This document shows positions 6,252-25,023 of a stretch of 25,186 bases of DNA, piece after piece. This DNA is from a virus. The position numbers were made by a program, and so were the translations under genes. The stretch is from the IMG/VR virus record IMGVR_UViG_3300010883_014904, positions 1 through 25,186 of that record; one strand, written 5' to 3'. Under the pieces are notes generated by a model. That model searched no databases. It saw only the letters and a list, made by a program, of their open reading frames with translations, and was not told where the DNA came from. Numbering within the stretch: the stretch's first letter is position 1; each line of letters begins with the position of its first letter.

Positions 6252-8078
6252 TTATTGTGGTAACGCTGAGTCACCACCACCAGCTGGTGGGGGCGTAGGA
6301 GCTACAGGCTCGGCTCCTTCAGGTGGTGTACCTCCAGGTCCAAATTCAGGAGGAGGCACCGCGGCGCCTACCCCGCCACCGCCAAGACCGCCTCCCATAG
6401 GCATACCACCACCACCACCACCAGGTGCCATTTCAGCACCGGCACCGGCTTCAGCAGCTGCTAATTCTCTCCAATTTGGTCCCATAGCTTCAATTTGAGC
6501 AAGTTCCCATTTAAGCTCAGAGTCTTTTCTTAATAATTCCCTGTTAGTACTTATTTCGTCGTCTGTAAGTTTGAGATAATGCTTCTTAGCATACGTATCA
6601 GATACGAGCTGATTTTGAATTGCGCTACTATAATTATTCCATTTAAGTTCGAGTAATTGTTGGTTTCTCAATTCTTGAAAGTTGGGTGGTGGATTAAATT
6701 GTAATTTAATATGTGGCTCTTTTACCTCAAACTTGTCCCATATACCTCTTAATTTTAAATGCGCAACAAATGCATCTTTTAATCCGAACGCAACAGCATG
6801 CTGTAACCTCATAATAAATCTGGCAAATTTAAGTTCTTCTCTAACAATTGTTGAACCGCCAGAGTCAGCTTGAGTGTCAGGGTTTAATCTCTCAACAGGA
6901 ATTCTCAATGAACGGTAAAGCTTTTGTCTGAAATATTTCAGATCTTCTAATTCACCTAAATTTTGACCTCCAGCTAAGGATGTAACATTTGTACCCTCAC
7001 TACCAGCTCTCTTCGCGAACCAGAAGTTATCAAGCATAGATTGTGGATTGAATGCCTGAACGGATCTACCTTGATTAACATCATATGTTTTACGAGACCA
7101 GTAGTTATTCATCAACTTTTTCAAATATGCTTCCGCTTTGGGTGGAGGCATATTACCTACATCAACATTAAAAACTAATCTTTCTGGAGCTCTTACTAAT
7201 CTGTAAATAATAATTGAATCTTCAATGAGAGATAACTGCCTATAAGCGCGTCGAGCTTGTTCGATGAAAGGTAGTCTAATGGATTTAGATTCATTCCACA
7301 TACCACTATGGATATATGTTATTTGACTCTTGTCAAATGGTATATGTAAGACTTTATTCTTTTGATCGTTATTACCTGCTTGTGGAGCTGTTTTTGCGTT
7401 AGTCTGATCTATAACTGGCTTACGTAATAAGAATCCTTTAACTAATAAATTTTGAATATTGTCGTAGATTGGATCTACTAAATCAGAGGGTATACTAATA
7501 ACGCCAAGTAGACCTAAATCTGATCTCTCGTTATGTATTACATGCTCAAAAAATAGCTCACCATCTACTAAAAGTTGTCTGAAGTACTCCCAACCTCTCC
7601 CATGTAAATTGTAATGCTCAATAAACTTATCAAATTCATTACTTATGAGTGTTTCACCTATGCTATCGATCATATCTTCTTGGAGATGCAGTCTTACGAT
7701 TCTCCCCTTATCGTCCTGGTTAATACACTCGTCACATATTTCATCAAGTGCATCTGCAACTTCAGAATATTGAGCCATTACTCTATAATCACGTAACCGC
7801 TTTGATTTATCATAGTCAACATTTGCGTACATGAACGCATGATAATTTTTATCAACGGCAATACTAGCCATTGGATGCATTTCATCACCGCCCTTGTTAG
7901 TTGATACTGCGAATTTTGAAACTGCTTCTTGTCTTCTTGAACCTGTGCTCCAGAACTTTTCAAATTTTGGATTTAAAGCTGTTACATCATCAATTACATC
8001 AAATCCGCGACTGTAAGGAAGCGCATTAGACACATAATTCATTAAACCTCTACCGAAAGTTGACTTGTCTCCTGCCAT
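6252..8078 (-). CDS. 20: Portal vertex protein (T4 gp20-like)
   Basis: Forms the dodecameric ring at one head vertex through which DNA is packaged and to which the neck and tail attach. The 608-residue protein is recognisable as the T4/cyanophage gp20 family across most of its length, for example YSEVADALDEICDE (about 103-116), DGELFFEHVIH, EDSIIIYRLVRAPERLVFNV, YLKKLMNNYWSRK, and FRQKLYRSLRIPVERL in the core. Length exceeds T4 gp20 (524) mainly because of a low-complexity tail: residues about 540-608 are almost only Gly, Pro and Ala with a few acidic residues, encoded by a GC-rich patch (6252-6461) unlike the rest of the window. Similar tails occur in marine T4-like portals. A late-type GATAAATA motif lies just before its ATG. 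Confidence 0.93.
   Translation of the reverse strand: MAGDKSTFGRGLMNYVSNALPYSRGFDVIDDVTALNPKFEKFWSTGSRRQEAVSKFAVSTNKGGDEMHPMASIAVDKNYHAFMYANVDYDKSKRLRDYRVMAQYSEVADALDEICDECINQDDKGRIVRLHLQEDMIDSIGETLISNEFDKFIEHYNLHGRGWEYFRQLLVDGELFFEHVIHNERSDLGLLGVISIPSDLVDPIYDNIQNLLVKGFLLRKPVIDQTNAKTAPQAGNNDQKNKVLHIPFDKSQITYIHSGMWNESKSIRLPFIEQARRAYRQLSLIEDSIIIYRLVRAPERLVFNVDVGNMPPPKAEAYLKKLMNNYWSRKTYDVNQGRSVQAFNPQSMLDNFWFAKRAGSEGTNVTSLAGGQNLGELEDLKYFRQKLYRSLRIPVERLNPDTQADSGGSTIVREELKFARFIMRLQHAVAFGLKDAFVAHLKLRGIWDKFEVKEPHIKLQFNPPPNFQELRNQQLLELKWNNYSSAIQNQLVSDTYAKKHYLKLTDDEISTNRELLRKDSELKWELAQIEAMGPNWRELAAAEAGAGAEMAPGGGGGGMPMGGGLGGGGVGAAVPPPEFGPGGTPPEGAEPVAPTPPPAGGGDSALPQ
6255..6461 (-). repeat. Gly/Pro/Ala low-complexity coding tail of the portal
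   Basis: This part of the portal gene encodes about 69 residues dominated by runs such as GGGGGG, GGGLGGGG, VPPPEFGPGG and PTPPPAGGG. On the plus strand it reads as repeated CCACCACC/CCGCC units. Its GC content is visibly far above the surrounding AT-rich sequence. It is probably a flexible, disordered extension beyond the conserved portal fold, and prone to slippage length changes. Confidence 0.75.
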
Positions 8079-10473: not shown

Positions 10474-10862
10474 ATTGTTTTAAGTCTTTCTATATCTATA
10501 TTATGGGTGTCTATATAATATCTAATCTCTCTTTCAGAGATTTCAAGATTGTTACTGAGAATATTAATAACTGCATTATCATCATTAGACGTTTGCTTCA
10601 CCTTCTTGATGTAATTAATCCTATATGGTCTTTGTACCGGTAGTACACTGACTAGGAATTTATATCCTTCTCTCTTTGTATCAAAGATGGAATAATAGCG
10701 ATTTACAGTTTCATTAATAATTGTCGCTACCGTAGGAGAGTACATACTCAGCCATCTATTAATCATATACTGGTTATATTCTGGCTCGGAGTCAACATTA
10801 TCAAGAAGAGTACCCTTCTTGTTTGTCAATATGTCTGTAATGAAGCTAAAGATATTCATCAT
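10464..10862 (-). CDS. 62: Clamp-loader small subunit (T4 gp62-like)
   Basis: With gp44, gp62 forms the ATP-driven loader that places the gp45 sliding clamp on DNA; the clamp also activates late promoters. This 132-residue protein resembles marine T4-like gp62: an N-terminal FSFITDILTNKKGTLLD, the conserved EYNQYMINRWLSMY (about 28-41), a central helix with NRYY, YKFLVSVLPVQRPYRINYIK (about 67-86) and a C-terminal helical region. T4 gp62 is longer (187 residues), but cyanophage versions are about this length. gp44 and gp45 are not in the window, although they lie next to gp62 in T4. The start is one of two adjacent ATGs overlapping the upstream stop (4 bp). Confidence 0.8.
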   Translation of the reverse strand: MMNIFSFITDILTNKKGTLLDNVDSEPEYNQYMINRWLSMYSPTVATIINETVNRYYSIFDTKREGYKFLVSVLPVQRPYRINYIKKVKQTSNDDNAVINILSNNLEISEREIRYYIDTHNIDIERLKTICH

Positions 10863-11449
10863 TTAATAATGATCTTAGTTGTAGCCAACCACATATCATC
10901 GTTCATTTCATAAAACATATCTACTACACCTCTCATGAAATTTTCACATTGATCGTCTGTTAGGTTGGTTGAGTATGCAAACCCCGGAGCTTGACGTCCA
11001 GCGACTACATTAATTGCTGTATGGCCTAATGCTGCACCGTCACGAACATATGTAATACTAACACTGCATTTTCCTTTTTGCTGTACAATACCGTGCTGTT
11101 CAAATTCTTTATGTACTAGCAAATCATCTCCGTTAACTTCGATGGGAGCGTTGATAAATTGTGTACTGAGAAAGTTACCTAACTGTGTATTGAACAATCG
11201 CTGCCAAGCAACTGCTCCGAATGCATCTAATCCTGGAATTTCCCAAACAAAGTTAATTGCATCATCGCTATAGATATAATCGTTATCAAGTGTATCTTCC
11301 AAGTCAATCATACCATCAGCTTCTACCTTCATAGGAGCTCTAAAAGCTAAGATGTTACCAATCGGTAATGTTTTGTTCCGAAAGAATTTATATGCGAATC
11401 GTTGATGGATCAGATCACCGTTGTAGACTTCAATATCCTTAACAATCAT
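10859..11449 (-). CDS. DUF366-like protein
   Basis: A 196-residue protein matching what I know of the DUF366 family: an opening YNGDLIHQRFAYKFF (9-23), FRAPMKVEADGMIDLED (36-52), YSDDAINFVWE (60-70), a QRL segment (WQRLFNTQLGNFL), NGDDLLV and then KCSVSITYVRDGAALGHTAINV. DUF366 is mostly known from archaea and some bacteria and is of unknown function; its fold may be related to biotin/lipoate ligases, which I state from memory. No signal peptide or membrane segment is seen. It lies between the GME-like epimerase and gp62, with 4-bp overlaps on both sides. Why a phage carries it is unclear. Confidence 0.6.
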   Translation of the reverse strand: MIVKDIEVYNGDLIHQRFAYKFFRNKTLPIGNILAFRAPMKVEADGMIDLEDTLDNDYIYSDDAINFVWEIPGLDAFGAVAWQRLFNTQLGNFLSTQFINAPIEVNGDDLLVHKEFEQHGIVQQKGKCSVSITYVRDGAALGHTAINVVAGRQAPGFAYSTNLTDDQCENFMRGVVDMFYEMNDDMWLATTKIIIK

Positions 11450-12498
11450 ACGCTAATATTAGCATCAACCTGTTCATTAATCCACTTGTATGTTTTAATT
11501 AATCCCTCTTTAAGAGGTCGGCTCGGTGCCCATCCGAGCTTTTCTTTAATTAATATATTATCAGAATTCCTACCAGCAACTCCAAGCGGTCCAGTTATAT
11601 GCATCTTGGTTAGTTTCTTATTACCAATTTCACATGCATAGTCTACTAATTGATTAATGGTAACCATTTCATCTGACCCGATATTAACAGGTCCAATAAA
11701 ATCAGATTCCATTAATCGTCTTATACCTTCAACACACTCATCGATATACAGGAAGCTTCTTGTTTGTATACCAGTGCCCCAAATTTCAATTTCGTGATCA
11801 GCCTGAATAACTTTCCGACAAATTGCAGCTGGCGCCTTCTCTCTACCGCCGTCCCATGTACCTAATGGTCCAAAGATATTATGAAAACGAGCAATACGGA
11901 CTGGTATATCGTGATTACGATTATATGCTAGATATAGCCTCTCACTAAACAATTTTTCCCATCCATATTCACTATCTGGATTAGCAGGGTAGGCACTGTC
12001 TTCTGCACAATTAGGATTATCTGGATCCATTTGATTATGCTCAGGATACATACATGCACTACTACTATAAAAGATTTTAGTTTTTGGATGATCGCTTGGT
12101 ATTTCTCCTTCAATGTCAACATTAAATTTATGTACAGCGTCTAGAATATTAAGATTAATAGCCGCGGAATTGTGCATAATATCTGCGTCATTCTCACCTG
12201 TAAAAATAAAACCTGCACCACCCATATCGGCAGCTAATTGGTAAATCTCATCAAACGGTAGTCTATATTGATCCGGTACGCTACCGTAGAAGTTGCCTTG
12301 CACGCCATCAAACCGAACGACTCGTTCACAAATACCATAATCACGAAGATCATGACAAACAAATTCGTCGGCTTCTGTCTCACTATATTCCGGCTCTTTA
12401 AGATCGACACCTCGAACCCAATACCCTTCTTTCTTTAATCTCGATACAAGATGGTTACCTATAAATCCACCTGCTCCTAGTACTAATGCTGTCTTCAT
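11446..12498 (-). CDS. GDP-mannose 3,5-epimerase-like SDR enzyme
   Basis: An extended short-chain dehydrogenase of 350 residues closely resembling plant GDP-mannose 3,5-epimerase. The NAD site is GAGGFIG (8-14). LAADMGGAGFI (88-98), YSSSACMYPE (144-153), YGWEK (178-182), RFHNIFGPLGTWDGGREKAP (204-223) and QTRSFLYIDECVEG are all characteristic. The catalytic set is intact: Y178/K182 of the SDR pair, plus C149 and K221, which correspond to the acid/base residues of the Arabidopsis enzyme. Family members epimerise C3 and C5 of a GDP-hexose; here the substrate may be a GDP-hexose or a GDP-heptose, given the kinase, nucleotidyltransferase and transketolase upstream. It overlaps both neighbours by 4 bp. 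Family is very sure, substrate is not. Confidence 0.87.
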   Translation of the reverse strand: MKTALVLGAGGFIGNHLVSRLKKEGYWVRGVDLKEPEYSETEADEFVCHDLRDYGICERVVRFDGVQGNFYGSVPDQYRLPFDEIYQLAADMGGAGFIFTGENDADIMHNSAAINLNILDAVHKFNVDIEGEIPSDHPKTKIFYSSSACMYPEHNQMDPDNPNCAEDSAYPANPDSEYGWEKLFSERLYLAYNRNHDIPVRIARFHNIFGPLGTWDGGREKAPAAICRKVIQADHEIEIWGTGIQTRSFLYIDECVEGIRRLMESDFIGPVNIGSDEMVTINQLVDYACEIGNKKLTKMHITGPLGVAGRNSDNILIKEKLGWAPSRPLKEGLIKTYKWINEQVDANISV

Positions 12499-12902
12499 TT
12501 TAATCTGTCTATTATATTCGTAGTCGACATCCCGGCTACTGTGTTAAAAATTTTTACTTCAGCAATATCACAACCAACAACATCCTCCGGGTTGTAATCA
12601 CCACCTTTAACAATTATATCTGGTGATAGCTGTTTAATCAACTGATACGGTGTATCTTCATCAAAAATTATTACTTCATCAACATACTTTAAAGACTCAA
12701 GTACATATTTTCTATCGGATTCAACATTAATCGGTCTACTGTTACCTTTTAATCTCCGGACACTACACGTACTATTGAGACCTACGACGACTCTACCTGG
12801 ACCACCTGTAGTCTGGTATGCTAACTCATGACAATATTGAAGAAGTTTTACATGTCCAATATGTAAGATATCAAAACATCCGTTTGTAAAGATAGTCCTC
12901 AT
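12495..12902 (-). CDS. RfaE2/HldE C-terminal-like sugar-phosphate nucleotidyltransferase
   Basis: A 135-residue single-domain nucleotidyltransferase equivalent to the C-terminal domain of bifunctional HldE, which joins heptose-1-phosphate to ATP to give ADP-heptose (some homologues use GTP or CTP). Diagnostic features are FTNGCFDILHIGHVKLL (5-21) with the HxGH motif at 14-17, SVRRLKGNSRP, DEDTPYQLI, IVKGGDYNPEDVVG and the terminal STTNIIDRL. Nearly every HldE landmark is present, so the heptose-like assignment is strong for the family; which nucleotide is used cannot be told. It overlaps the kinase gene by 4 bp and the epimerase by 4 bp, so the two HldE activities are on separate, adjacent genes. 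Confidence 0.88.
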   Translation of the reverse strand: MRTIFTNGCFDILHIGHVKLLQYCHELAYQTTGGPGRVVVGLNSTCSVRRLKGNSRPINVESDRKYVLESLKYVDEVIIFDEDTPYQLIKQLSPDIIVKGGDYNPEDVVGCDIAEVKIFNTVAGMSTTNIIDRLK

Positions 12903-13648
12903 ACTACGCTAACACCTCTCTTCTGTACAACTGTTGTTGCACATTTATTTGCAAAGTGAATTGCAGCATTTATATCCTCAGATTCAATATATTGAAAAAC
13001 TAATCCTGCCAAAAATGAGTCTCCAGCACCTGATACATCTTTTACATCAACAGCATTAACTTCAAATTGTTGACCTCTATAAAATGCTCCATGTGGCCCC
13101 ATCGTTCTTATTATTTTATCATATAATTTATTATTAGATTCTATTATCGACTTACTTGCAACATATTCTTGATGATTTATTTTAATAAATTTAACAGTAT
13201 TGATCCAGTCCTCTGATAATAGTGGTTTTTTTGTATCTATAAATGTATTGGAATGGTTTTGACAGATATAATTAATATCCTCAGGATGGAGAAACCCCTT
13301 ATCATAATCTGATATAACAACAGCATCGTAATCCTCCCATTTAATGTTGTGATCACTAAAATCAATACGATCAACTTTGTGAGGTGAGTCTACTCTGATA
13401 AACATATAATTAGTATCCTTATCAATATATCGTGTCTTAGTGATATCTCTCCAATTATTATTGGTCAATATATCACATTTGAAGTCAAGGGCTTTAATAT
13501 TGCATTGAACATTCTTAGCCATTCCACCATTAAGAATTTCAGCACCGGAATTTAGAATCTGTACTGGAAACTCAGGTGCTAGCCGATCACAGGTACAGTA
13601 TACGAAAACGTCTCTACAGCTATCTCCAACTACTAATATATTTGACAT
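12899..13648 (-). CDS. RfaE1/HldE N-terminal-like PfkB-family sugar kinase
   Basis: A 249-residue ribokinase/PfkB-fold kinase. It begins ILVVGDSCRDVFVYC, with RLAPEFPVQIL and GGMAKNVQ, the order seen in the HldE kinase domain (RISPEAPVPV, GGAANVA). VVISDYDKGFL and the C-terminal DVSGAGDSFLAGL (204-216) are the PfkB signature, with D210 the catalytic base. HldE kinase domains are about 310-330 residues; this one is shorter mainly in the lid and central region, but keeps the active site. It would phosphorylate C1 of a heptose-7-phosphate or a similar sugar phosphate. The start overlaps the transketolase stop by one base. The pair with the next gene argues strongly for a sugar-1-phosphate to NDP-sugar step. 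Confidence 0.85.
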   Translation of the reverse strand: MSNILVVGDSCRDVFVYCTCDRLAPEFPVQILNSGAEILNGGMAKNVQCNIKALDFKCDILTNNNWRDITKTRYIDKDTNYMFIRVDSPHKVDRIDFSDHNIKWEDYDAVVISDYDKGFLHPEDINYICQNHSNTFIDTKKPLLSEDWINTVKFIKINHQEYVASKSIIESNNKLYDKIIRTMGPHGAFYRGQQFEVNAVDVKDVSGAGDSFLAGLVFQYIESEDINAAIHFANKCATTVVQKRGVSVV

Positions 13649-14595
13649 TAACCGAGGAATGTTTTGATGTCGTTTACTGACGCATCAAACCCACGACCGA
13701 AATGACTTCGAAGTAAATCACGACCTCCATAGACGTACGGGTATCCAGGCTCGGTGGGATATCCTAGTCTTAATGTTGGTCTATATACCCCTGAATCACA
13801 CAGCGTCTCGAGGATACTCGACCCAAGACCACCAGGTAAATAATGCTCTTCAACAACAGCTAGTTTTTTATTCTTACCAACAGCTTTTAGAAATTCTTCA
13901 ACGTTTCCAGGCTTACCGTTAACAAGTGTATGTACATCAATTACACCAACATCGTCAAGTTTTTCAGACATTTTTAATGCTTCATGTACCATGATTCCTG
14001 TCGATACAATATAATTCTTACCCTTCTTAATAACATTAAACCCTTTACTGAAGTCAGTCTTATCATCATATACATTTTCTGTGACTTGTCTCTCCATTCT
14101 AATATGTCTCGAATTATTAAAACATACATTATCGTCAACACAGAGACCGGCTACATGAGCCGACATAACACTATCTGTTAGCATATGTGTATCAATATTA
14201 GGATATACTCGCATGCATGCGATGTCTTCTAATTGAAAGTGTGTAGGACCAGCGTCTTCATAACTAAATCCTGCTCCACATGCGACAATAGTCATGGGAA
14301 TATTCATAACAGAATTTTCAATTCGAATTAACTCTATGGCTCTCAAGACCATGAATGTTGCAATAGCATACGCAAAAACTTTCTTACCTTCCATAGCTAA
14401 TCCCGAGCCGGCTGTTATTGTATTCTGCTCAGAAATACCTGTATTGTAAATCTGGTTAGGGAATTCGCGTCTAATATCGTCGAGAGCGGGGGCTCCCATA
14501 TCCGCCATTAAGATAATTATATCTCTATCACCCTCTTTGATTTTTTCATAAAGGGTATTAAAAAACGCGTCTCTTTGACTAAGTGTATTATTCAT
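13648..14595 (-). CDS. Transketolase, C-terminal subunit (pyrimidine-binding and C-terminal domains)
   Basis: The second half of a two-gene transketolase, about 315 residues. The Pyr domain has the catalytic glutamate of ThDP enzymes in NTGISEQN (E56), followed by AGSGLAMEGKKVFAYAIATF, and GPTHFQLEDIACMR further on; the transketolase C domain follows (VGVIDVHTLVNG, VVEEHYLPGGLGS). I chose the ATG at 14595, which has AAAGGA upstream at good spacing and overlaps the N-subunit stop by 8 bp. A TTG extending 24 residues upstream is unlikely. It would pair with the next gene product to move two-carbon units between sugar phosphates. The family is firm; the substrate is not. Confidence 0.9.
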   Translation of the reverse strand: MNNTLSQRDAFFNTLYEKIKEGDRDIIILMADMGAPALDDIRREFPNQIYNTGISEQNTITAGSGLAMEGKKVFAYAIATFMVLRAIELIRIENSVMNIPMTIVACGAGFSYEDAGPTHFQLEDIACMRVYPNIDTHMLTDSVMSAHVAGLCVDDNVCFNNSRHIRMERQVTENVYDDKTDFSKGFNVIKKGKNYIVSTGIMVHEALKMSEKLDDVGVIDVHTLVNGKPGNVEEFLKAVGKNKKLAVVEEHYLPGGLGSSILETLCDSGVYRPTLRLGYPTEPGYPYVYGGRDLLRSHFGRGFDASVNDIKTFLG

Positions 14596-15499
14596 TTGGT
14601 AAAATTCCTTTGTCACCTTCTTCTTCCGTCCATTGTGACTTTCCTGGATGACCGGACGGCTCTCCAACAGGCTCTGTATTAATTCCTAACTCTTTACGGC
14701 ACTGATCAATATCATCTTGCTTTGTTGGAGCCGCGGCATGCCAAATTGGTTTATTTTCAACATGAGGAATACCTGCTCCTTTAATAGTATCACAAATAAT
14801 AACCATTGGCTTATCTTGTTTACGCTGTCTTAGATCAGAGCATGCAGTAATAATTTCATCAATATTGTGTCCATTAATTCTACGTACCGCCCAGCCGAAC
14901 GATACCCATTTATCAACCAGTGGTTCTAGTTTGATAAGATTTTCTGTGAAGTCTGTAGTACAGAGATAGTTTCTATCTATAAGAACCACCAGATTGTTTA
15001 AGTTATGATGGGCGGCGAACATAGCAGTCTCCCAGACTGAGCCTTCATACATCTCACCGTCACCCATTGTACAAAATGTTAACCACAATTCTCGTTTAAT
15101 CTTAGCTGCTAAAGCTAATCCTGTAGCTACTCCGATTCCATGACCTAAGGACCCAGTTGAAATTTCAATACCGGGTACTGTTTTCTGTAAGTGTACTCCA
15201 AAAGGTCCATCGACTTGAGCAAATCTCTCTGTCCACGACTTATCATAGTAACCACAATCGGCAAGAAGATTATATAACGCAGGGCTCCCTTGACCCTTAC
15301 TGTAAATATGACGGTCACGATCTTTCCAATCGGGATCTTTCGGGTCGTGATTCATAATACCACCATAATATAACGATATTAAGATCTCAATCACAGAAAG
15401 AGATGATGTCAAATGACCAGTCTTAGCATCAATACACATCTCAAGTGTATCTTTTCTTAAGAGGTGTGCTTTTTCGTATAGTTCTTCAAGCGTAAACAT
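14588..15499 (-). CDS. Transketolase, N-terminal subunit (ThDP pyrophosphate-binding domain)
   Basis: A 303-residue protein equal to the first domain of transketolase. It has LTSSLSVIEILISLYYGG (30-47, typically a conserved His/Ser region), IYSKGQGSPALYNLLA, ISTGSLGHGIGVATGLALA (113-131) and the ThDP signature GDGEMYEGSVWE (146-157) ending at N177, with an extra C-terminal stretch linking to the partner. Two-subunit transketolases are known in many bacteria and archaea, so this is a natural split and not a broken gene. In this context it could supply sedoheptulose-7-phosphate for a heptose-type sugar, or form a different ketose. An AT-rich 17-bp gap separates it from the radical-SAM gene, including TTATATAA at 15505-15512. 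Confidence 0.9.
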   Translation of the reverse strand: MFTLEELYEKAHLLRKDTLEMCIDAKTGHLTSSLSVIEILISLYYGGIMNHDPKDPDWKDRDRHIYSKGQGSPALYNLLADCGYYDKSWTERFAQVDGPFGVHLQKTVPGIEISTGSLGHGIGVATGLALAAKIKRELWLTFCTMGDGEMYEGSVWETAMFAAHHNLNNLVVLIDRNYLCTTDFTENLIKLEPLVDKWVSFGWAVRRINGHNIDEIITACSDLRQRKQDKPMVIICDTIKGAGIPHVENKPIWHAAAPTKQDDIDQCRKELGINTEPVGEPSGHPGKSQWTEEEGDKGILPNE

Positions 15500-15516
15500 A
15501 ATTGTTATATAATATA

Positions 15517-17028
15517 TTATGACAAAACTGTGTCATCTTCAAGCAGTTTTCTCTTTAATCTAATTTTTGACATATCTACAATATGATCTTTAGCTTTCTG
15601 TCCGAACTTATCATTGACCATATTTAAATACACCGGGTTCTCACAATACTTATGGAATGCATCATCTCTAAACTGTAATACTTCTTTAGCTGAGATATGT
15701 TTGGTTGGTAGCGGCGTACAATCATAGCTATGTTGTGAGTAACCGTCCCATGTATCTGGCAATTTTAATCCATTTGCAACAGCTTCTCTATACAAGGGAG
15801 ATCCAGGATATGCCATAGCTGAATAAAAATTAATAAACTCACAATTTTGACCTACAGCCATATCAAGAGTTTGTTGCATCGTCTCGATTGTATCTTCTGG
15901 TAATCCGAATATGTAATTACCTTGAAGGTATATATCATGATCTTGAATCATCTTAACAACATCATTAATTGACACATTGTCTCTTTCAGCAGCAGTCTTT
16001 GCCTTACCTACATCGTCTCTTACTTCTAAATTACCAGATTCAATTCCTAAGCATACCCAATTAAATCCTGCTTTCTTCATCTTAGCTAAGAGATTTTTTT
16101 TAATAGTTGTAACTCGGGCATATACCCACATATTCAGATCATATCCGCGCTCAATTAAAATATCACAAAGTTCATGTACTCGTTTAGGGTGAAGAATAAA
16201 GAGCTCATCATCAAACCTAATATTTTTAACTCCTTGTTGTACTACTCTTTCAATCCAATATACAAGTTTCTTAACAGACCAATATCTAATTCCTGAGCCA
16301 CCGAATATATCATTAATCATACAATAATGACATGCGTATGGACAACCGAGAGATGCTTGAAATGCTGCATATGGAGCTCTAATATCTAGGAACTGTGGGT
16401 CAGTACTTTTTTCAAAATCCTGTAAGCATTGATGCTGATGAGCTCGGTATTTGTTAAATGATGGCAATAAATCCCAAGCGTAGTCATCCAGTGTGTCATC
16501 AAGATCCGTTATGTTCTTAGAAGGTTTAGTTGAAACTACTTCCCCCTCACATTCAAAATACAATCCCGGTACATCTTCAAATTTACCGTTACCGTTTTGT
16601 GCTTGAAGTAGTCCTTCAAGAGTATAAACAGCTTCACCCTTAATGACATAATCAGCGTCTGTTTCTCTTACAGTTTGTTCTGGTAGTGCTGATGGATGTT
16701 GTCCGCCTGTAACAACTAAGATATCAGGATGTGTCTCTTTTATCTCTTTAATTATCTTAGTAGCCGCGGCCATTGTTTGCGTTGATGCTGATGGCTGATG
16801 ACCATATACCATGACTGCTACAAGCTTAGGATTATAGTCTTTGATTTTATTAATATCCCATCCGTCAATATTAGTATCGAGAATAGCTGTGTCATAGCCT
16901 TTCTTGCGAGTATAATTAGCTAATAGGGGCGCCCAAAAAGGGGTTGATACAGATGTAATACCTCTCTCTTCTAGCTCTTGATATGTAATCGCTTGATTAC
17001 CGGGGTGAATTATTAAAATATCTAACAT
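15517..17028 (-). CDS. Cobalamin-binding-domain radical SAM protein
   Basis: A 503-residue enzyme with an N-terminal cobalamin-binding-like Rossmann domain (about 1-140; ILIIHPG, LVAVMVYGHQPS, ILVVTGGQHPSALPE) followed by a radical-SAM TIM-barrel. The [4Fe-4S] motif is C229-x3-C233-x2-C236 (SLGCPYACHYCMIN), then VKNIRFDDELF, VCLGIESGN and YIFGLPEDT, standard for this family. The N-domain lacks the DxHxxG lower-ligand motif, as in most of this class. Members methylate or rearrange unactivated carbons and are common in surface-glycan clusters. Here it sits between the RmlC-like epimerase and transketolase, so an unusual sugar modification is plausible. Its start overlaps the epimerase stop by one base and has GGAAGAG about 9 bases upstream. 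Confidence 0.88.
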   Translation of the reverse strand: MLDILIIHPGNQAITYQELEERGITSVSTPFWAPLLANYTRKKGYDTAILDTNIDGWDINKIKDYNPKLVAVMVYGHQPSASTQTMAAATKIIKEIKETHPDILVVTGGQHPSALPEQTVRETDADYVIKGEAVYTLEGLLQAQNGNGKFEDVPGLYFECEGEVVSTKPSKNITDLDDTLDDYAWDLLPSFNKYRAHQHQCLQDFEKSTDPQFLDIRAPYAAFQASLGCPYACHYCMINDIFGGSGIRYWSVKKLVYWIERVVQQGVKNIRFDDELFILHPKRVHELCDILIERGYDLNMWVYARVTTIKKNLLAKMKKAGFNWVCLGIESGNLEVRDDVGKAKTAAERDNVSINDVVKMIQDHDIYLQGNYIFGLPEDTIETMQQTLDMAVGQNCEFINFYSAMAYPGSPLYREAVANGLKLPDTWDGYSQHSYDCTPLPTKHISAKEVLQFRDDAFHKYCENPVYLNMVNDKFGQKAKDHIVDMSKIRLKRKLLEDDTVLS

Positions 17029-17528
17029 TATCTATCTCTTCCGTACAGTATAGGGTTATTTATAGGCCACTCTACCTTTAATCTAGGATCGTTCCATTTA
17101 ATAACAAATTGTAAGTCAACATCGCTGTATTCTCCGTCATATGCTAATTTGTAATGAAAAACAGCATCATCAGACAGTACTAAATGCGCATTACCATAAC
17201 CAGGTGGTACTAATACTTGTAATTTATTCCGGTCACTGATAATAAACGTTTCTACTTTAAGATATGTGTCTGAATCTCTGCGGTTATCAACAATTGCTAA
17301 GAATATGTCACCATAAACACATGATATTAATTTCCATGTTCGTTCATCTCCGTGAAACCCTCTAAGAACATGCTTACGAGAGTGTGAAAATTTATCATGA
17401 CAAAACTGTAAATCAGGATAAGACATACCTTTGTGCATATCCTTTGACCAAGTTGTATATATCTCACCTCTAAAGTCTACAAAGGAGGTAGGACGAAATG
17501 TTCTTAATCTTAAAATCTCAGATCTCAT
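17028..17528 (-). CDS. RmlC-like dTDP-4-dehydrorhamnose 3,5-epimerase-family protein
   Basis: A 166-residue cupin of the RmlC family, which epimerises C3 and/or C5 of 4-keto-6-deoxy sugar nucleotides. Landmarks: FVDFRGEIYTTW (16-27), VLRGFHGD (54-61) with the catalytic H59, KLISCVYGDIFLAIVDNRR (RmlC: KLV.V..GEVFDV.VDLR), VLVPPGYGNAHLVLSD and IKWNDPRLKVEWP. RmlC proteins are usually about 180 residues, so this is near full length. In Campylobacter modified-heptose pathways an RmlC-like epimerase follows a GMD-like dehydratase, and here it immediately follows one (11-bp overlap). The nucleotide (dTDP or GDP) cannot be read from sequence. Only one reasonable start exists. Confidence 0.85.
   Translation of the reverse strand: MRSEILRLRTFRPTSFVDFRGEIYTTWSKDMHKGMSYPDLQFCHDKFSHSRKHVLRGFHGDERTWKLISCVYGDIFLAIVDNRRDSDTYLKVETFIISDRNKLQVLVPPGYGNAHLVLSDDAVFHYKLAYDGEYSDVDLQFVIKWNDPRLKVEWPINNPILYGRDR
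17057..17064 (-). promoter_or_regulatory. Possible T4-type late promoter TATAAATA before the radical-SAM gene
   Basis: Minus-strand TATAAATA, identical to the T4 late consensus, lies 28 bases before the ATG of the radical-SAM gene, inside the end of the RmlC-like gene. Unlike the portal and gp15 motifs, it leaves room for a leader with a GGAAGAG ribosome site. It is in coding DNA (Pro-Ile-Asn-Asn codons), so chance is a real possibility. Confidence 0.35.
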
Positions 17529-18507
17529 CGCGCCAATAATTTAGTAAATCCTGACATATGTGTTTAACACCTTTTGTGACACTCCACCCGGTATCATTCT
17601 TAAATTTAGTACAATCTGGTATTTGTAGTGTTATATCTGTTGGCCTAACTCTAGCTTGGTCAACTACAACCTCAAATACTTTAGGACTAGTGCTTAGACT
17701 AATAAGTGTATCTAGTGCTTCTCCTACTTCACATGTTTCTTCACCACCAATAATATATACTTCTCCTATTTTTCCCTTCTCAATACATAGCCAATACGCT
17801 CGTACAGCATCATCAATATGGTTATAGGTACGAACTGATTTTATATTACCTACACAAATTTGATAAGGACCGTTATTTGGAAAATCTTCTGACTTCTCAT
17901 GTGTTGCAATTTGATTTGCGAAAGATGACAATGCAAATAGCTTCCCTCTACGGGATCCTTCATGACTAAACATTCTCGTAATAATAATTTTTAGTCCAAA
18001 CGCACTATGATAATATTGAGACATCAAATCTTGACCAACTTTACTAATTGAATAAGGATTTGCTGCTCTTATAGGATTCCTTTCCGAGATAGGTATTTCT
18101 TCAGGGCGAGGATTACCATATACTTCACTGGATGAAACGCTAACAATAATCGGATCAATATCACCGTCTCGATATATACAATCTAATAAATTAGTTGTAC
18201 CAATTATATTCGTTCGTAGTGTATGTACCGGTGTATAGAAGCTTGTTTCAGGTAAGCTCTGAGCCGCAAAATGATATACTACGTCTGGTTTCGCCATATT
18301 AAGCGCTCTCTTAATTGATACAGTATCATCGAGATCACCATTTAATAATGTTACACGTGGATGATTTATTAGATGGGCAATATTTTTTTCATCGCTTCTC
18401 CATCTCTTAAAGCCATATACATGTACATCATCACTTTGTTTGAGAATGTAATCGGCCATATGGCTCCCTACAAATCCTGTAATACCTGTTATGAAAAAAT
18501 TTCTCAT
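17518..18507 (-). CDS. GDP-mannose 4,6-dehydratase-like SDR enzyme
   Basis: A 329-residue extended SDR. The NAD(P) site is TGITGFVG (7-14). Catalytic residues are S127-E128 in SSSEVYG and Y152-x3-K156 (YSISK). SHEGSRRGKLFALSSFANQI resembles the GMD motif F-N-H-E-S-P-R-R-G-E-x-F-V-T-R, which separates GMD from dTDP- and UDP-sugar dehydratases. It would remove water to give a 4-keto-6-deoxy sugar nucleotide, GDP-mannose or, in this cluster, possibly GDP-manno-heptose. I used the ATG at 18507, one base after the upstream stop, rather than the TTG at 18519. It is followed by an RmlC-like epimerase, the usual order for GDP-6-deoxy-heptose making. Other 4-reductases or dehydratases of the same family remain possible. 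Confidence 0.8.
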   Translation of the reverse strand: MRNFFITGITGFVGSHMADYILKQSDDVHVYGFKRWRSDEKNIAHLINHPRVTLLNGDLDDTVSIKRALNMAKPDVVYHFAAQSLPETSFYTPVHTLRTNIIGTTNLLDCIYRDGDIDPIIVSVSSSEVYGNPRPEEIPISERNPIRAANPYSISKVGQDLMSQYYHSAFGLKIIITRMFSHEGSRRGKLFALSSFANQIATHEKSEDFPNNGPYQICVGNIKSVRTYNHIDDAVRAYWLCIEKGKIGEVYIIGGEETCEVGEALDTLISLSTSPKVFEVVVDQARVRPTDITLQIPDCTKFKNDTGWSVTKGVKHICQDLLNYWRDEI

Positions 18508-18508
18508 A

Positions 18509-19453
18509 TTATTTGTCAAATGGTTTTAATAGTCTATCATAGAGTGCACTAGTAGTCCACTTACTCATATATTCATCGTGTGCATTTTGTGCGACTTGCT
18601 CATACGTATGCCAATCTGCTAATATACCTTTGATTTTATTCTCCAGATCTACATCATCATCAAAATATATAAAATGCTCATCTGGCTTTAAGAAATGTTC
18701 AATTTCATTCCACGGGTCTCTGTGTACTAATAATAGACATTTACCTATACAGCTATCTGATACTCTACCTTTTAAGTGAGGTACCCAGTTGTCATCTATT
18801 CTACTAGCCCACTTATACATGTCCCAGTTTGGTAAATTTCTTACTGTAGTTGAATAGTTACCAAAATGTGAATTCTTAATTACAGAGATCTTCGTCTCAT
18901 TCATTATTTGCATCCTCTCAGCATCTGTAACTTGATCATGTGTTGCTGTCCCACTATCCATATGAGGCCAATGAGATATGTGAACTGAGTCCGGAAACTT
19001 TCTTAGAGTTTTTACAAACCCCTTGAGTAGTGCATCGTGTGTACCGCCACAATATCCAACAGAGTACTTCTTCTCTGCATCTGGGTTATACCACTTTGGA
19101 TTAACAGGATTTAGAATTGGTGCAAATTTATTTGTTTTATATACATCGTTAAGATACTGTGATACACTAGGACTGTGAGGATGTACAATCATGTCCCACT
19201 TATCAATGTTCCACGGTACAGGTTCATCTCTTTCATGAGGCAGTTTACCAGACTGAAATCCAATCGGTTCTTCTCCTTCAAGGTAGACATAATTATTATA
19301 CCCTTCAGGTAATTCCATTCTAAAGCCTGCTTGAATACCCCAACAAAAAAGCAATCTTTTGTCATCCTTATCATCCGAGCACAACTCGTCAAAGTTCATC
19401 GTATGGTGACCACCAAAGTGGTAGTCAGACGTCATGTCGTGTAATATGTGCAT
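18509..19453 (-). CDS. Glycosyltransferase, GT-B type
   Basis: A 314-residue protein whose C-terminal half looks like a GT-B nucleotide-sugar-binding domain: YSVGYCGGTHDALLKGFVKTL, MNETKISVIKN, ASRIDDNWVPHLKGRVSDSC, a GKCLLLVHRD stretch and the DEHFIYFDDDVDLENKIKGIL segment, followed by the usual C-terminal helix (AQNAHDEYMSKWT). The N-terminal half (MHILHDMTSDYHFGGHH...) is not recognised. The acceptor and donor sugars are unknown. It is soluble, with no membrane helix, and is translationally coupled to the neighbours (1-bp overlap upstream). It acts in the cytoplasm on a glycan or a protein acceptor, to judge by the cluster. Confidence 0.72.
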   Translation of the reverse strand: MHILHDMTSDYHFGGHHTMNFDELCSDDKDDKRLLFCWGIQAGFRMELPEGYNNYVYLEGEEPIGFQSGKLPHERDEPVPWNIDKWDMIVHPHSPSVSQYLNDVYKTNKFAPILNPVNPKWYNPDAEKKYSVGYCGGTHDALLKGFVKTLRKFPDSVHISHWPHMDSGTATHDQVTDAERMQIMNETKISVIKNSHFGNYSTTVRNLPNWDMYKWASRIDDNWVPHLKGRVSDSCIGKCLLLVHRDPWNEIEHFLKPDEHFIYFDDDVDLENKIKGILADWHTYEQVAQNAHDEYMSKWTTSALYDRLLKPFDK

Positions 19454-21255: not shown

Positions 21256-21954
21256 TTATACGTCAAGGTAATTCCAGTCAAGCTTGAATAGTTTACCTAC
21301 ATCATGCCACGACCCAGGTGTAAATCTCGAATATAAGTTTTTAACTTTCGCTTTCGGATTTAATTTATCGTAGATGTAATTAAAGCAAGTGTCAACCATG
21401 TGTATCTCTGTTGCGTCTTCTAATACTCTGCACCAATCAAGTACATTATAGTCATCTAGAAATTGAATATCAACTCTCTTTATATTAACTTCAATATTAC
21501 TCATTGCTTCTTTAATAATAGTATTTGGAGGTGTACCTACATACGGATTAATAAAGGCATACTCCTCGTCATCCTTCAATCCTAATACATCGTAATATAA
21601 TCTATCCTCTTTTTCCTTATTTCGCTTAAACTTAAAATAATCAGCCCAGTCCTTCCAATCAATACCAGCATAATCATACTTGGCCTCTAATACACTTGTA
21701 CATTGAACGCGTTGATCAGCATTTTGGAGATCTAGATAAACATCTGGCTGTACTTCTTTATCATTAACATGAATTTTTGTACCTGGTCCAACAAAATGTA
21801 CACCAGGTGAGTCTAGATAATCGTTATACCATAAAAGATCTTCTCTAACTGGCCATATTACTTTATATCCCTGCTCAACATAGTGCTGAGCAATCTTTTG
21901 ACCGAAGAATACATCACCGATACCTATTTGTTGATTAATATAACAAATTTTCAT
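21256..21954 (-). CDS. GT9-like (heptosyltransferase-type) glycosyltransferase, tentative
   Basis: A 232-residue protein resembling the GT9/ADP-heptose:LPS heptosyltransferase fold only in outline. It starts MKICYINQQIGIGDVFFGQK, where heptosyltransferases have G-x-G-D, then VEQGYKVIWPV, and a C-terminal half with DWCRVLEDATEIHMVDTC, comparable to the acceptor/donor loop region. GT9 proteins are usually 320 or more residues, so this is short or divergent. If correct, it could use an activated heptose, which would fit the upstream pathway; I treat this as a weak but interesting link. It overlaps the GT10 gene by 4 bp. Confidence 0.55.
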   Translation of the reverse strand: MKICYINQQIGIGDVFFGQKIAQHYVEQGYKVIWPVREDLLWYNDYLDSPGVHFVGPGTKIHVNDKEVQPDVYLDLQNADQRVQCTSVLEAKYDYAGIDWKDWADYFKFKRNKEKEDRLYYDVLGLKDDEEYAFINPYVGTPPNTIIKEAMSNIEVNIKRVDIQFLDDYNVLDWCRVLEDATEIHMVDTCFNYIYDKLNPKAKVKNLYSRFTPGSWHDVGKLFKLDWNYLDV

Positions 21955-22757
21955 TGTAGGTAATTGTCACAAATCCAATCGTCTAGTACATCTAGCTCTA
22001 ATGTTTTGTTGAGATTGTTCTTAATGTGTTCCATTTTGGATTGATATAGGTCTTCTGTGAGTGTACTAAAGTCAAACGTACCTGTTAGTGGTATAATTCC
22101 TCCAGCGTCATAGTGATCTCCGATGTTAGGTGGGCCAATATAGATTGGTACTGTACCAGTAGCGAAGCAATCTAGTAATTTTTCTGTGTAGTATGTTTCA
22201 TAACTATCGTTTTCAATAGCAATTGAAAATCTGTAGTCGCATAGCCCCTCCTCTTTGGTGTCAATTGGGTTAATCTCTCTACCATACATGTCTACGAGGT
22301 CACTTTCTTTTAATCTATCAATAATTTGACAACGTAATCTGTGTAACTCTGTTGAATTCTTACCTGAGGCTATCATCGAGCAGTTTTTTGTCTTTGGATA
22401 CACCTTAAGGTCTTCAATATATGTACCATAGGCAGGACACCAGACAAATTTCTCGTGGAGTTGTAATAATTCCTCATGGTGAGTGAATATTTGCTCATAT
22501 GTTTCAAGATAATTCTCTAAATTTGATTTTATATCATCAACAAATGGTTGAGAGATAAATCTTGACTCTAAAATCCAAGCATATTTCTTCTTACCATCAT
22601 TTTTATCTTCTAATCCTCTCGGAATTCCATTGTCACAATAAACAGAAACAGAATTATCTTTACTTTCGTAGTCCCATACTAACTTTTTAGGCTTCTTCCA
22701 CCAAGTACTGCTATGCGCGTGCTGAAATCCACCACCTATTAAGTTAAAATGCTTCAT
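21951..22757 (-). CDS. GT10-family (alpha-1,3-fucosyltransferase-like) glycosyltransferase
   Basis: A 268-residue enzyme with the clear GT10 signature at 177-210: FSIAIENDSYETYY, then TEKLLDCFATGTVPIYIGPP (GT10: FENSxxxDYVTEKL...AVPVYxG). GT10 enzymes transfer fucose (or related sugars) from GDP-fucose to Gal/GlcNAc by alpha-1,3/1,4 linkages, as in Helicobacter Lewis antigens. The N-terminal part, which binds acceptor, is short. Donor could be GDP-fucose, made by the host, or another GDP-6-deoxy sugar from this cluster. Overlaps 4 bp with both neighbours. Confidence 0.82.
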   Translation of the reverse strand: MKHFNLIGGGFQHAHSSTWWKKPKKLVWDYESKDNSVSVYCDNGIPRGLEDKNDGKKKYAWILESRFISQPFVDDIKSNLENYLETYEQIFTHHEELLQLHEKFVWCPAYGTYIEDLKVYPKTKNCSMIASGKNSTELHRLRCQIIDRLKESDLVDMYGREINPIDTKEEGLCDYRFSIAIENDSYETYYTEKLLDCFATGTVPIYIGPPNIGDHYDAGGIIPLTGTFDFSTLTEDLYQSKMEHIKNNLNKTLELDVLDDWICDNYLQ

Positions 22758-23374
22758 TGACTCTTAATATACAACGCGTCACCCCAGGTTTGCCCAGCCC
22801 AGTCGGTTTCGATGCGTACAAATTGATGCTTACCGAGAAAATAATCTAAATCGTCTACGTGTGGACATCCTTTATATACTTCTTGTCTATTAATTTCTGC
22901 ATAAATGTAGTCAATGTTGTGAAGAGTTCGCCTTGCACCGAGAAAAACATTCAATTCGAACCCTTGAACGTCAATATTAATCATATTCAATGTTGAATTT
23001 GGTTGAAATTTGTCAAGAGGCTCAACACTTACTTCGTATGTATCGTCAAATGTAATGTTAGGATATTGTTGTAAGTGAATTCCTGGCTCAAGAATTGAAT
23101 TAGACTGCCCTTCATTAGCAGTTTCCTTATTCATCTGCGCTTTACATGAAAAAGGACCAAGAGCTTTGTTAATACATACAACAGATTCATCATCACCAAC
23201 TGTTTCTTTTAACTTAGCGAAGCTATCTGGGTCAGGTTCAAAGAATATTATATTCTCAATAGTGGGATACTTCTTATATGTTGCGTATTCTTGACCAAAA
23301 TGAGCACCGATGTGTATTACACCGGTGACATTCATACCATACTTGGTATATAGCTTATCGAAATCTAATAACAT
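22754..23374 (-). CDS. FkbM-family SAM-dependent methyltransferase (second copy)
   Basis: A 206-residue FkbM-type methyltransferase. Landmarks: VTGVIHIGAHFGQEYATY (16-33, SAM loop), IENIIFFEPDPDSFAKL (about 39-55, motif II), SNSILEPG, and LNMINIDVQGFELNVFLGA (FkbM IDVQGxE). It is clearly a different enzyme from the one at 19926-20651, which has a longer variable middle. It lies between the GT11 and GT10 transferase genes, so it probably methylates the same glycan. One-base overlap with the GT11 stop. Confidence 0.84.
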   Translation of the reverse strand: MLLDFDKLYTKYGMNVTGVIHIGAHFGQEYATYKKYPTIENIIFFEPDPDSFAKLKETVGDDESVVCINKALGPFSCKAQMNKETANEGQSNSILEPGIHLQQYPNITFDDTYEVSVEPLDKFQPNSTLNMINIDVQGFELNVFLGARRTLHNIDYIYAEINRQEVYKGCPHVDDLDYFLGKHQFVRIETDWAGQTWGDALYIKSQ

Positions 23375-24150
23375 TATTTCTGTTCCCAGTGATCACAGTA
23401 AATGTCCTCATAGTCTTGTGGACCACCTGGTCCAAACCATAATTTAGGTACAATTACTCTTGGATTATTATTGTTAAGCCATGCTCCCCACCATGCGAAC
23501 GTACTATTTGACATAATTACATCATCGCATTGAGTCAACATGTACATATCTTCTAATTCATCCTTACTATTACATAAAATAGTGTTGTCATTACATAAAT
23601 TACTAGCTACCCAATCAGGAGTATCGGTTGCTACTACAAACACACTGTCGTCAAACGATTTTTGAGCATATTTGTAGTAAACTGGACTACAAGTTGGGTG
23701 AATATGAGGATTGTCTAAGTAATCCCCTCTACGTACATGTATACCTACAATACGCTTACCGTATGCATCACGAATTTTACCGAACGCTTTATGTATTCTA
23801 TCTTTTACATCGTCTGGAAATGTAAATAGTTGTTTTACCTTGTCTGCATTGTGTTTAAAGTATTTTTCACTCTGTAAATACCCATGTAACATCATTCCTG
23901 ACTCTTGATAGGGTATTTCCTTGTGGTGATGGAAGGGTTCCTGGTATTGATTGACAGGTACTTCATCTGTTGACGGGACATTCTTAAATAAGTTGTCCTT
24001 GTATTTGTGTTTTGTATTACCTTGCAATAAATGATGCTGGATATTGTAATTAATACCGTAATCATCATTATTATCAAGTGCTAAGCTATAACCAGCTGCA
24101 ATTTGAAACATCTGGTTACCTACTCCGCCGCATATGTTGTTAATAATCAT
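23374..24150 (-). CDS. GT11-family (alpha-1,2-fucosyltransferase-like) glycosyltransferase
   Basis: A 258-residue enzyme with GT11 motifs: an N-terminal GGVGNQMFQIAAGYSLAL (8-25), GIHVRRGDYLD (136-146; the HxRRGD GDP-binding motif) and SNSTFAWWGAWL (214-225). GT11 enzymes transfer fucose alpha-1,2 to galactose, with GDP-fucose as donor; bacterial examples of about 290 residues occur in O-antigen clusters. The catalytic regions are intact. The ATG immediately follows the TAG of the upstream transferase. With the GT10 gene, two fucosyltransferase types lie in one cluster, but no recognisable GDP-fucose synthase is present here. Confidence 0.88.
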   Translation of the reverse strand: MIINNICGGVGNQMFQIAAGYSLALDNNDDYGINYNIQHHLLQGNTKHKYKDNLFKNVPSTDEVPVNQYQEPFHHHKEIPYQESGMMLHGYLQSEKYFKHNADKVKQLFTFPDDVKDRIHKAFGKIRDAYGKRIVGIHVRRGDYLDNPHIHPTCSPVYYKYAQKSFDDSVFVVATDTPDWVASNLCNDNTILCNSKDELEDMYMLTQCDDVIMSNSTFAWWGAWLNNNNPRVIVPKLWFGPGGPQDYEDIYCDHWEQK

Positions 24151-25023
24151 CTATAATCTCCAATTCTTTATATATTCTCTTAATGCTGGTTGGTCGTGCT
24201 GTACTGACTCAACATATGACACGACTTGTCTGTTGTGTTCATAAAATTCTTGATGCTCTTTCTTCGACCCGGTACCATCGTAGTGGTGTAGGTGCCAGCA
24301 AGGCTTACGTATACCGGACAACCTTCCAACATCATAACCTAACGAGTTAATTCTAACCGGAAACTCATCATCCTCATATCCCCATCCCTTAAACAGGGGA
24401 TTATACCCGTTACATTTAATAATATTATCACGGCGCCCAGTTACACAACCGCCCTTACTATGTACATGCCCGACAAGAACGTTATTATACGTCTTATTAA
24501 CATGTTGATGATATAATTCTAAATTCTCACCAACATTACCATCATAATCTAACAATTGTTCTGGAAATTTATTATCTAGAGTATCGTAATCACAGTTTGA
24601 CTGTATGAATTCTTGCTTTAAATCACTATCCGTACATAGAAATAATCCATTGAATGGATATATTAATCCACATGCAGGATTTTCACTGAGCTGTTGATGC
24701 GCTTCAAGAATTTGTAATGGATGTATAATGGCATCAACATCGTTAAACACTAATGTATTTGTTTTTGCCAATTTAATACATTTGTTATACCCTTCACACT
24801 TTTTCCATTCTGTAGGATTATATTGAAACGTATATACATCATTTTCTGTCAACTTTATTAATTGAGGTACTTTGGGCTCCAGTCCATCTTCTGAAATAAT
24901 AAACTGTACATTGTCTCCGTAGCGACGATAAAAGGATACCATCGCTTTTAAATTTTGTTGACGCTCTTCGTTATCAACTCTACAGAACACACAAAATGTT
25001 ATATTGCTAAGATCGTACTTCAC
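24151..25023 (-). CDS. Glycosyltransferase, GT-A type (galactosyltransferase-like C-terminus)
   Basis: A 290-residue GT-A-fold transferase. The N-terminus FCVFCRVDNEERQQNLKAMV (10-29) and the DxD motif N94-D95-V-D97 (LVFNDVDAI) are those of GT2-like enzymes, which bind a UDP/GDP-sugar through a metal. FKGWGYEDDEFPVR (211-224) is the GWGxEDxE-type acceptor-binding motif of beta-1,4-galactosyltransferases and related families. The start is GTG at 25023; no ATG lies before residue 28, which would remove the first strand. The 3' end abuts the GT11 start with no gap. The sugar transferred is not known; galactose or GalNAc is a common family choice. Confidence 0.8.
   Translation of the reverse strand: MKYDLSNITFCVFCRVDNEERQQNLKAMVSFYRRYGDNVQFIISEDGLEPKVPQLIKLTENDVYTFQYNPTEWKKCEGYNKCIKLAKTNTLVFNDVDAIIHPLQILEAHQQLSENPACGLIYPFNGLFLCTDSDLKQEFIQSNCDYDTLDNKFPEQLLDYDGNVGENLELYHQHVNKTYNNVLVGHVHSKGGCVTGRRDNIIKCNGYNPLFKGWGYEDDEFPVRINSLGYDVGRLSGIRKPCWHLHHYDGTGSKKEHQEFYEHNRQVVSYVESVQHDQPALREYIKNWRL

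Follow-up and report, generated by a model that had tools for sequence, protein, structure and literature searches.

GT10 and GT11 glycosyltransferase genes of a T4-like phage share a gene run with a GDP-mannose 3,5-epimerase: L-galactose as a candidate donor sugar

Two glycosyltransferases and a methyltransferase in one gene run

The window, the whole stretch of DNA analyzed here, is a 25,186-base piece of a viral contig. Three overlapping genes on its minus strand encode two glycosyltransferases of families named for fucosyltransferases and, between them, a methyltransferase:

21951-22757, minus strand: GT10-family (alpha-1,3-fucosyltransferase type) glycosyltransferase, 268 aa; open frame with a PF00852 match
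22754-23374, minus strand: FkbM-type SAM methyltransferase, between both glycosyltransferases, 206 aa; PF05050 and TIGR01444
23374-24150, minus strand: GT11-family (alpha-1,2-fucosyltransferase type) glycosyltransferase, 258 aa; PF01531

Transcription proceeds in the order GT11, FkbM, GT10, with overlaps of 4 bases between GT10 and FkbM and 1 base between FkbM and GT11. GT11 matched PF01531 at 90.1 bits (E = 2e-25; cut-off, 23.9), and GT10 matched PF00852 at 40.7 bits (E = 2.6e-10), above the curated cut-off of 23.9 but over half of the domain model only. The FkbM gene scored 60.7 bits against PF05050 (cut-off, 22.7) and 68.0 bits against TIGR01444. Residues Y189/E192/K193 of GT10 align with the donor-site Tyr246/Glu249/Lys250 of the Helicobacter pylori fucosyltransferase HpFucT and are invariant in 14 phage GT10 proteins. 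GT11 carries HxRRxD at positions 138 to 143 (HVRRGD) and NSTFAWWGAW at position 215, and its donor-site motifs are conserved over 17 phage proteins. Judged by sequence, the two family signatures are not due to chance. The AlphaFold model of GT10 (pLDDT, 89.9) returned HpFucT, FUT9 and AtFUT11 as its top PDB folds in Foldseek; that of GT11 (pLDDT, 90.7) returned NodZ, FUT8, AtFUT1 and also POFUT1, so the modeled GT11 has a GT-B fucosyltransferase fold. The first-pass annotation had described GT10 and GT11 as intact and separated by an FkbM methyltransferase gene alone, and both statements hold.

The trio is part of a 19-gene run, most of whose genes overlap, that extends from 25023 down to 10464. 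The genes that flank it are as follows:

24151-25023, minus strand: GT7-C-domain (beta-1,4-galactosyltransferase-like) glycosyltransferase, the first complete gene of the run; PF02709, 42.6 bits
21256-21954, minus strand: conserved protein beside GT10, probably a sugar-modifying enzyme or transferase

The PDB sequence matches of the GT7-C protein were beta-1,4-galactosyltransferases only, all of them weak (best E = 3.9e-5). Its gene also adjoins GT11 in records L215 and L322, and together with GT11 and GT10 it would amount to a Lewis-y-like enzyme set. Searches of Pfam, PHROG and PDB gave no match to the protein at 21256-21954, a homologue of which comes after GT10 in L215, L305, L322 and L367.

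Nucleotide-sugar genes of the run

One gene in this same minus-strand run of overlapping genes encodes an enzyme that could supply a donor to GT10 and GT11:

11446-12498, minus strand: GDP-mannose 3,5-epimerase (GME), the proposed source of GDP-L-galactose for GT10 and GT11, assigned by homology and catalytic residues

Its best PDB match was 2c59, the GME of Arabidopsis thaliana (E = 1e-89), over residues 6 to 346, nearly the full length. All four catalytic residues (C149, Y178, K182 and K221) are present; we take them to be C145, Y174, K178 and K217 of plant GME, a correspondence checked on the 2c59 alignment. From this homology and these residues we infer that the enzyme forms GDP-L-galactose. 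GME yields mainly this product but also GDP-L-gulose, which could feed another transferase. A DUF366 protein is encoded directly after GME (10859-11449), and it is conserved near GME in L035, L036, L038, L083, L215, L225 and L322.

We also considered whether 11446-12498 is a GDP-L-fucose synthase (GFS). This assignment was rejected: the gene scored 79.8 bits against NF047922, whose cut-off is 500, and the last catalytic position holds Lys in place of the catalytic His of phage GFS. That score was nevertheless the best of any gene in the profile search of the window for GFS, so the earlier remark that GDP-fucose synthase is lacking is correct for this 25,186-base fragment. A GFS gene may be present beyond the ends of this fragment. 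Pfam, TIGR and NF profiles likewise revealed no true GDP-mannose 4,6-dehydratase (GMD) in the 25 kb.

Between GME and the trio lie several genes of heptose type:

12495-13648, minus strand: split HldE-like pair, with a nucleotidyltransferase at 12495-12902 and a PfkB-type kinase at 12899-13648
13648-15499, minus strand: split transketolase-like pair; PF00456, PF02779 and PF02780
17028-17528, minus strand: RmlC-fold epimerase closest to Campylobacter GDP-4-keto-heptose 3(,5)-epimerases; PDB match 8dak
17518-18519, minus strand: short-chain-type (SDR) protein closest to GDP-D-glycero-D-manno-heptose 4,6-dehydratase; PDB match 7us5

The SDR protein matched 7us5 (E = 5e-67) ahead of the GMDs (about E = 1e-27). 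Its identification as a GMD that would complete a fucose route was rejected, as it scored 132.5 bits against TIGR01472 gmd (cut-off, 415) and 7us5 is nearer. The epimerase matched 8dak at E = 5e-50 versus 4e-19 for RmlC. The HldE-like pair scored 148.5 bits (TIGR02199) and 100.6 bits (TIGR02198), both below cut-off. The N- and C-terminal transketolase halves lie in different reading frames that share 80 bases, and TTG serves as a start codon; the start assigned to the C-terminal half is putative. The heptose-type nucleotide-sugar genes (12495-18519) lie on both sides of 15517-17028, which encodes a B12-binding radical SAM protein. In phage Bellamy, the homologue of the dehydratase is encoded together with a further SDR, a GHMP kinase and a nucleotidyltransferase, a neighborhood consistent with a GDP-heptose route.

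Donor genes beside GT10 and GT11 in other phages

A GT10/FkbM/GT11 trio, counted where all three genes share a strand and fit into 3.2 kb, occurs at a minimum of 16 phage loci, including that of isolate S-SRM01. Five loci (L227, L273, L305, L322 and L367) have the order of the window, and the others are reversed, as in S-SRM01. Recurrence of the GT10/GT11 pair among phage records and contigs rules out that it is unusual in a phage. Aquatic phages commonly carry such gene sets, and the window phage is of the marine type.

We then counted donor genes. Among 20 phage records with GT10 or GT11 (GT11 in 19, GT10 in 8), 15 had GME only, 4 had GMD and GFS only, 1 had both and none had neither. The mutual exclusion of GME and GMD plus GFS gave a one-sided Fisher value of 0.001 in these records, which are a non-random sample with some related members. 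Two sets of 80 contigs were collected without reference to donor genes. Those found through GT10 alone comprised 50 with GME only, 10 with GFS or GMD only, 6 with both and 14 with neither. Those found through GT11 alone comprised 9 with GME, 35 with GFS or GMD, none with both and 36 with neither; here a GFS threshold of 250 bits had missed divergent enzymes, and lowering it to 120 bits raised the number of GFS contigs from 1 to 27 and made the exclusion between GME and GFS clearer, not weaker. Scanning of viral contigs with a single GT11 protein returned nothing, and an alignment returned matches. A broader first GT10 set, obtained with the window GT10 as query and composed mostly of short contigs, speaks against the link to GME, which occurred in only 4 of 33. 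Greedy clustering at 70% reduced the GT10 set to 6 groups, which left a per-cluster test without power. Phage GT10 and GT11 go with GME or with GMD plus GFS in a nearly exclusive manner, and rarely with both. Both donor pathways in one phage were seen in S-SCSM1 and L296.

The linkage was also evident from the side of GME. GT10 or GT11 lay within 10 kb of GME at 42 of 56 viral GME loci versus 7 of 68 cellular ones, a contrast that may partly reflect glycosyltransferase models built on phage proteins. GME directly adjoins GT10 in isolates S-SM2, S-T4 and Sf-CH8, and GT11 in isolates Bellamy, S-CAM9 and S-8S53. Because the immediate downstream neighbors of GME vary, direct adjacency alone is weak evidence.

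Donor labels were clustered on the protein trees, with 9 changes (at least about 7) for GT10 as opposed to a shuffled mean of 18.3, and 18 changes for GT11 as opposed to 46.0. The window GT10 belongs to an eight-member group in which seven rows are GME-only and one has both donor types (SH-aLRT 91, not starred). Of the five rows nearest to the window GT11, four are GME-linked. Since the label changes several times on the trees, either the donor was switched or some enzymes accept both; one glycosyltransferase type may accept either donor.

Three contigs of uncultured phages in IMG/VR (L215, L225 and L322) are colinear with the window, with GT7-C, GT11, (FkbM), GT10, GME and DUF366 followed by structural genes, at 23 to 68% identity. 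L215 and L225 differ from the window in having no FkbM gene between the glycosyltransferases. None of the three matched the transketolase, HldE-like or heptose dehydratase genes, and their whole records contain no true GMD or GFS; GMD plus GFS beside GT10/GT11 is thus absent from the window and unseen in its colinear relatives, all of which are fragments. The gene kept with the transferases in these relatives is GME, not the heptose genes.

Outside the run, the window encodes a T4-like portal protein (6252-8078) with about 33% identity to the best-listed cultured phages, which are cyanophages. This low identity places the window in a divergent T4-like lineage. Most of the closest portal relatives are fragments; in the longest of them, at 117 kb, there are two SDR matches, and no GME-, GFS- or GMD-like match was found near its portal gene.

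Three cultured phages offer comparisons. S-SM2 (GU071095) resembles the window in that GME, GT10, transketolase-like, heptose kinase, isomerase and GT11 genes form one cluster, and its GT10 is about 50% identical to that of the window; its genome has no GMD or GFS. However, its GT10 directly follows GME, and GT11 is about 13 kb away. Genes of this cluster are annotated as "UDP-glucose 4-epimerase" and "putative transferase." S-SRM01 (MW015081; PMC8557907) likewise has GT10, FkbM and GT11 side by side, but in the opposite order and with GMD and GDP-L-fucose synthase instead of GME. S-SCSM1 (MK867354) shares GME and GT11 in one cluster and differs in having MPI, GMD and GFS and no GT10 match.

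wcaG RNA (RF01761), which takes its name from a GDP-fucose synthase gene, occurs shortly upstream of GME in Bellamy (L117:1502-1601) and of an SDR-GME pair in S-SM2 (L115:12704-12799); in S-SCSM1 its annotation precedes the GMD-GFS-GME genes. An Rfam scan of the window gave no match.

L-galactose or L-fucose

H. pylori builds Lewis-y with the same two classes of enzyme, FutA/B (GT10) and FutC (GT11). The H. pylori system uses GDP-L-fucose, whereas the only enzyme of matching kind in the window is predicted to form GDP-L-galactose. As GME is the only matching donor-sugar gene there, GT10 and GT11 may attach L-galactose. This sugar is L-fucose with a hydroxyl on C6, so enzymes of fucosyltransferase type can use GDP-L-galactose, and several fucosyltransferases do accept it (PMC8787198). 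On balance we favor the reading that GT10, GT11 or both transfer L-galactose instead of L-fucose, probably within a phage cassette for surface glycans.

The gene families, catalytic residues and linkage to GME are observed; for what such a cassette does (which donor and acceptor it uses, which linkage it forms, whether it methylates the sugar and to what end) we propose the following. Phage GME (11446-12498) would epimerize host GDP-mannose at C3 and C5 to GDP-L-galactose. GT11 and GT10 would add L-galactose to a glycan of the host or of the phage, possibly one built by the adjacent beta-1,4-galactosyltransferase-like enzyme (24151-25023), and the FkbM enzyme would O-methylate the added L-galactose. 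The outcome would be an altered surface of the cell (or virion) during infection. The first-pass annotation had pointed to the Lewis-y-like glycans of Helicobacter and suggested that difucosylated or methyl-fucosylated surface structures could be produced. Its enzyme families and gene order stand, and the weak beta-1,4-galactosyltransferase matches upstream lend a hint to the Lewis-y-like architecture; the choice of L-fucose is weakened by the GME gene in the window.

The main rival holds that GT10 and GT11 are ordinary fucosyltransferases, supplied with GDP-L-fucose by the host or by phage GMD and GFS encoded elsewhere, and that GME serves a different transferase. Family and fold are those of fucosyltransferases, S-SRM01 pairs the same trio with its own GMD and GFS, and a 25-kb fragment leaves room for such genes. 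We nonetheless judge this arrangement unlikely, though a serious contender, given that records with GT10/GT11 and GME mostly lack GFS, whole isolate genomes included, and that the colinear relatives keep GME in records devoid of GFS and true GMD.

GDP-6-deoxy-heptose is a much less probable donor. It would come from a transketolase/HldE-type route encoded within the run, with the dehydratase (17518-18519) and the epimerase (17028-17528), whose nearest solved relatives act on GDP-heptose, as the enzymes that form it. Against this, L215, L225 and L322 combine GT11, GT10 and GME without matches to the heptose genes, the window has no heptose guanylyltransferase or isomerase, and an HldE-like domain normally gives an ADP-sugar. 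Slightly less probable still is that GT10 and GT11 belong to their families in name only and are inactive or use an unrelated donor, as the half-length PF00852 match might suggest; the frames are intact, donor-site motifs are conserved in 14 GT10 and 17 GT11 phage proteins, and the confident models match fucosyltransferases.

Earlier work has described fucosyltransferase genes of phages and, in a single phage, GME; in the accessible portion of the S-SCSM1 paper, GME and fucosyltransferases are both named but listed separately and not linked (PMC9602691). The searchable literature, which mostly excludes subscription journals, contained no statement on phage GT10 or GT11 enzymes that are coupled to GME or act as L-galactosyltransferases, and the swap between GME and GMD plus GFS appears undescribed there.

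With the preferred donor, L-galactose, the predicted sugar of the cassette shifts away from L-fucose. Fucose-binding lectins, which the first-pass annotation had proposed as a test, could miss or misread glycans carrying it. L-galactosylated glycans have so far been made with borrowed promiscuous fucosyltransferases (PMC8787198), and the cassette offers natural candidate enzymes for them. For phage GT10 and GT11 genes, many of them annotated as fucosyltransferases, a simple rule emerges: they are accompanied by GME or by GMD plus GFS. More tentatively, and at somewhat less than even odds in our estimation, many "fucosyltransferases" of aquatic phages may be natural L-galactosyltransferases, in phages where a single GME has taken the place of GMD plus GFS, and would decorate surfaces with L-galactosylated (O-methylated) Lewis-like glycans while infection proceeds.
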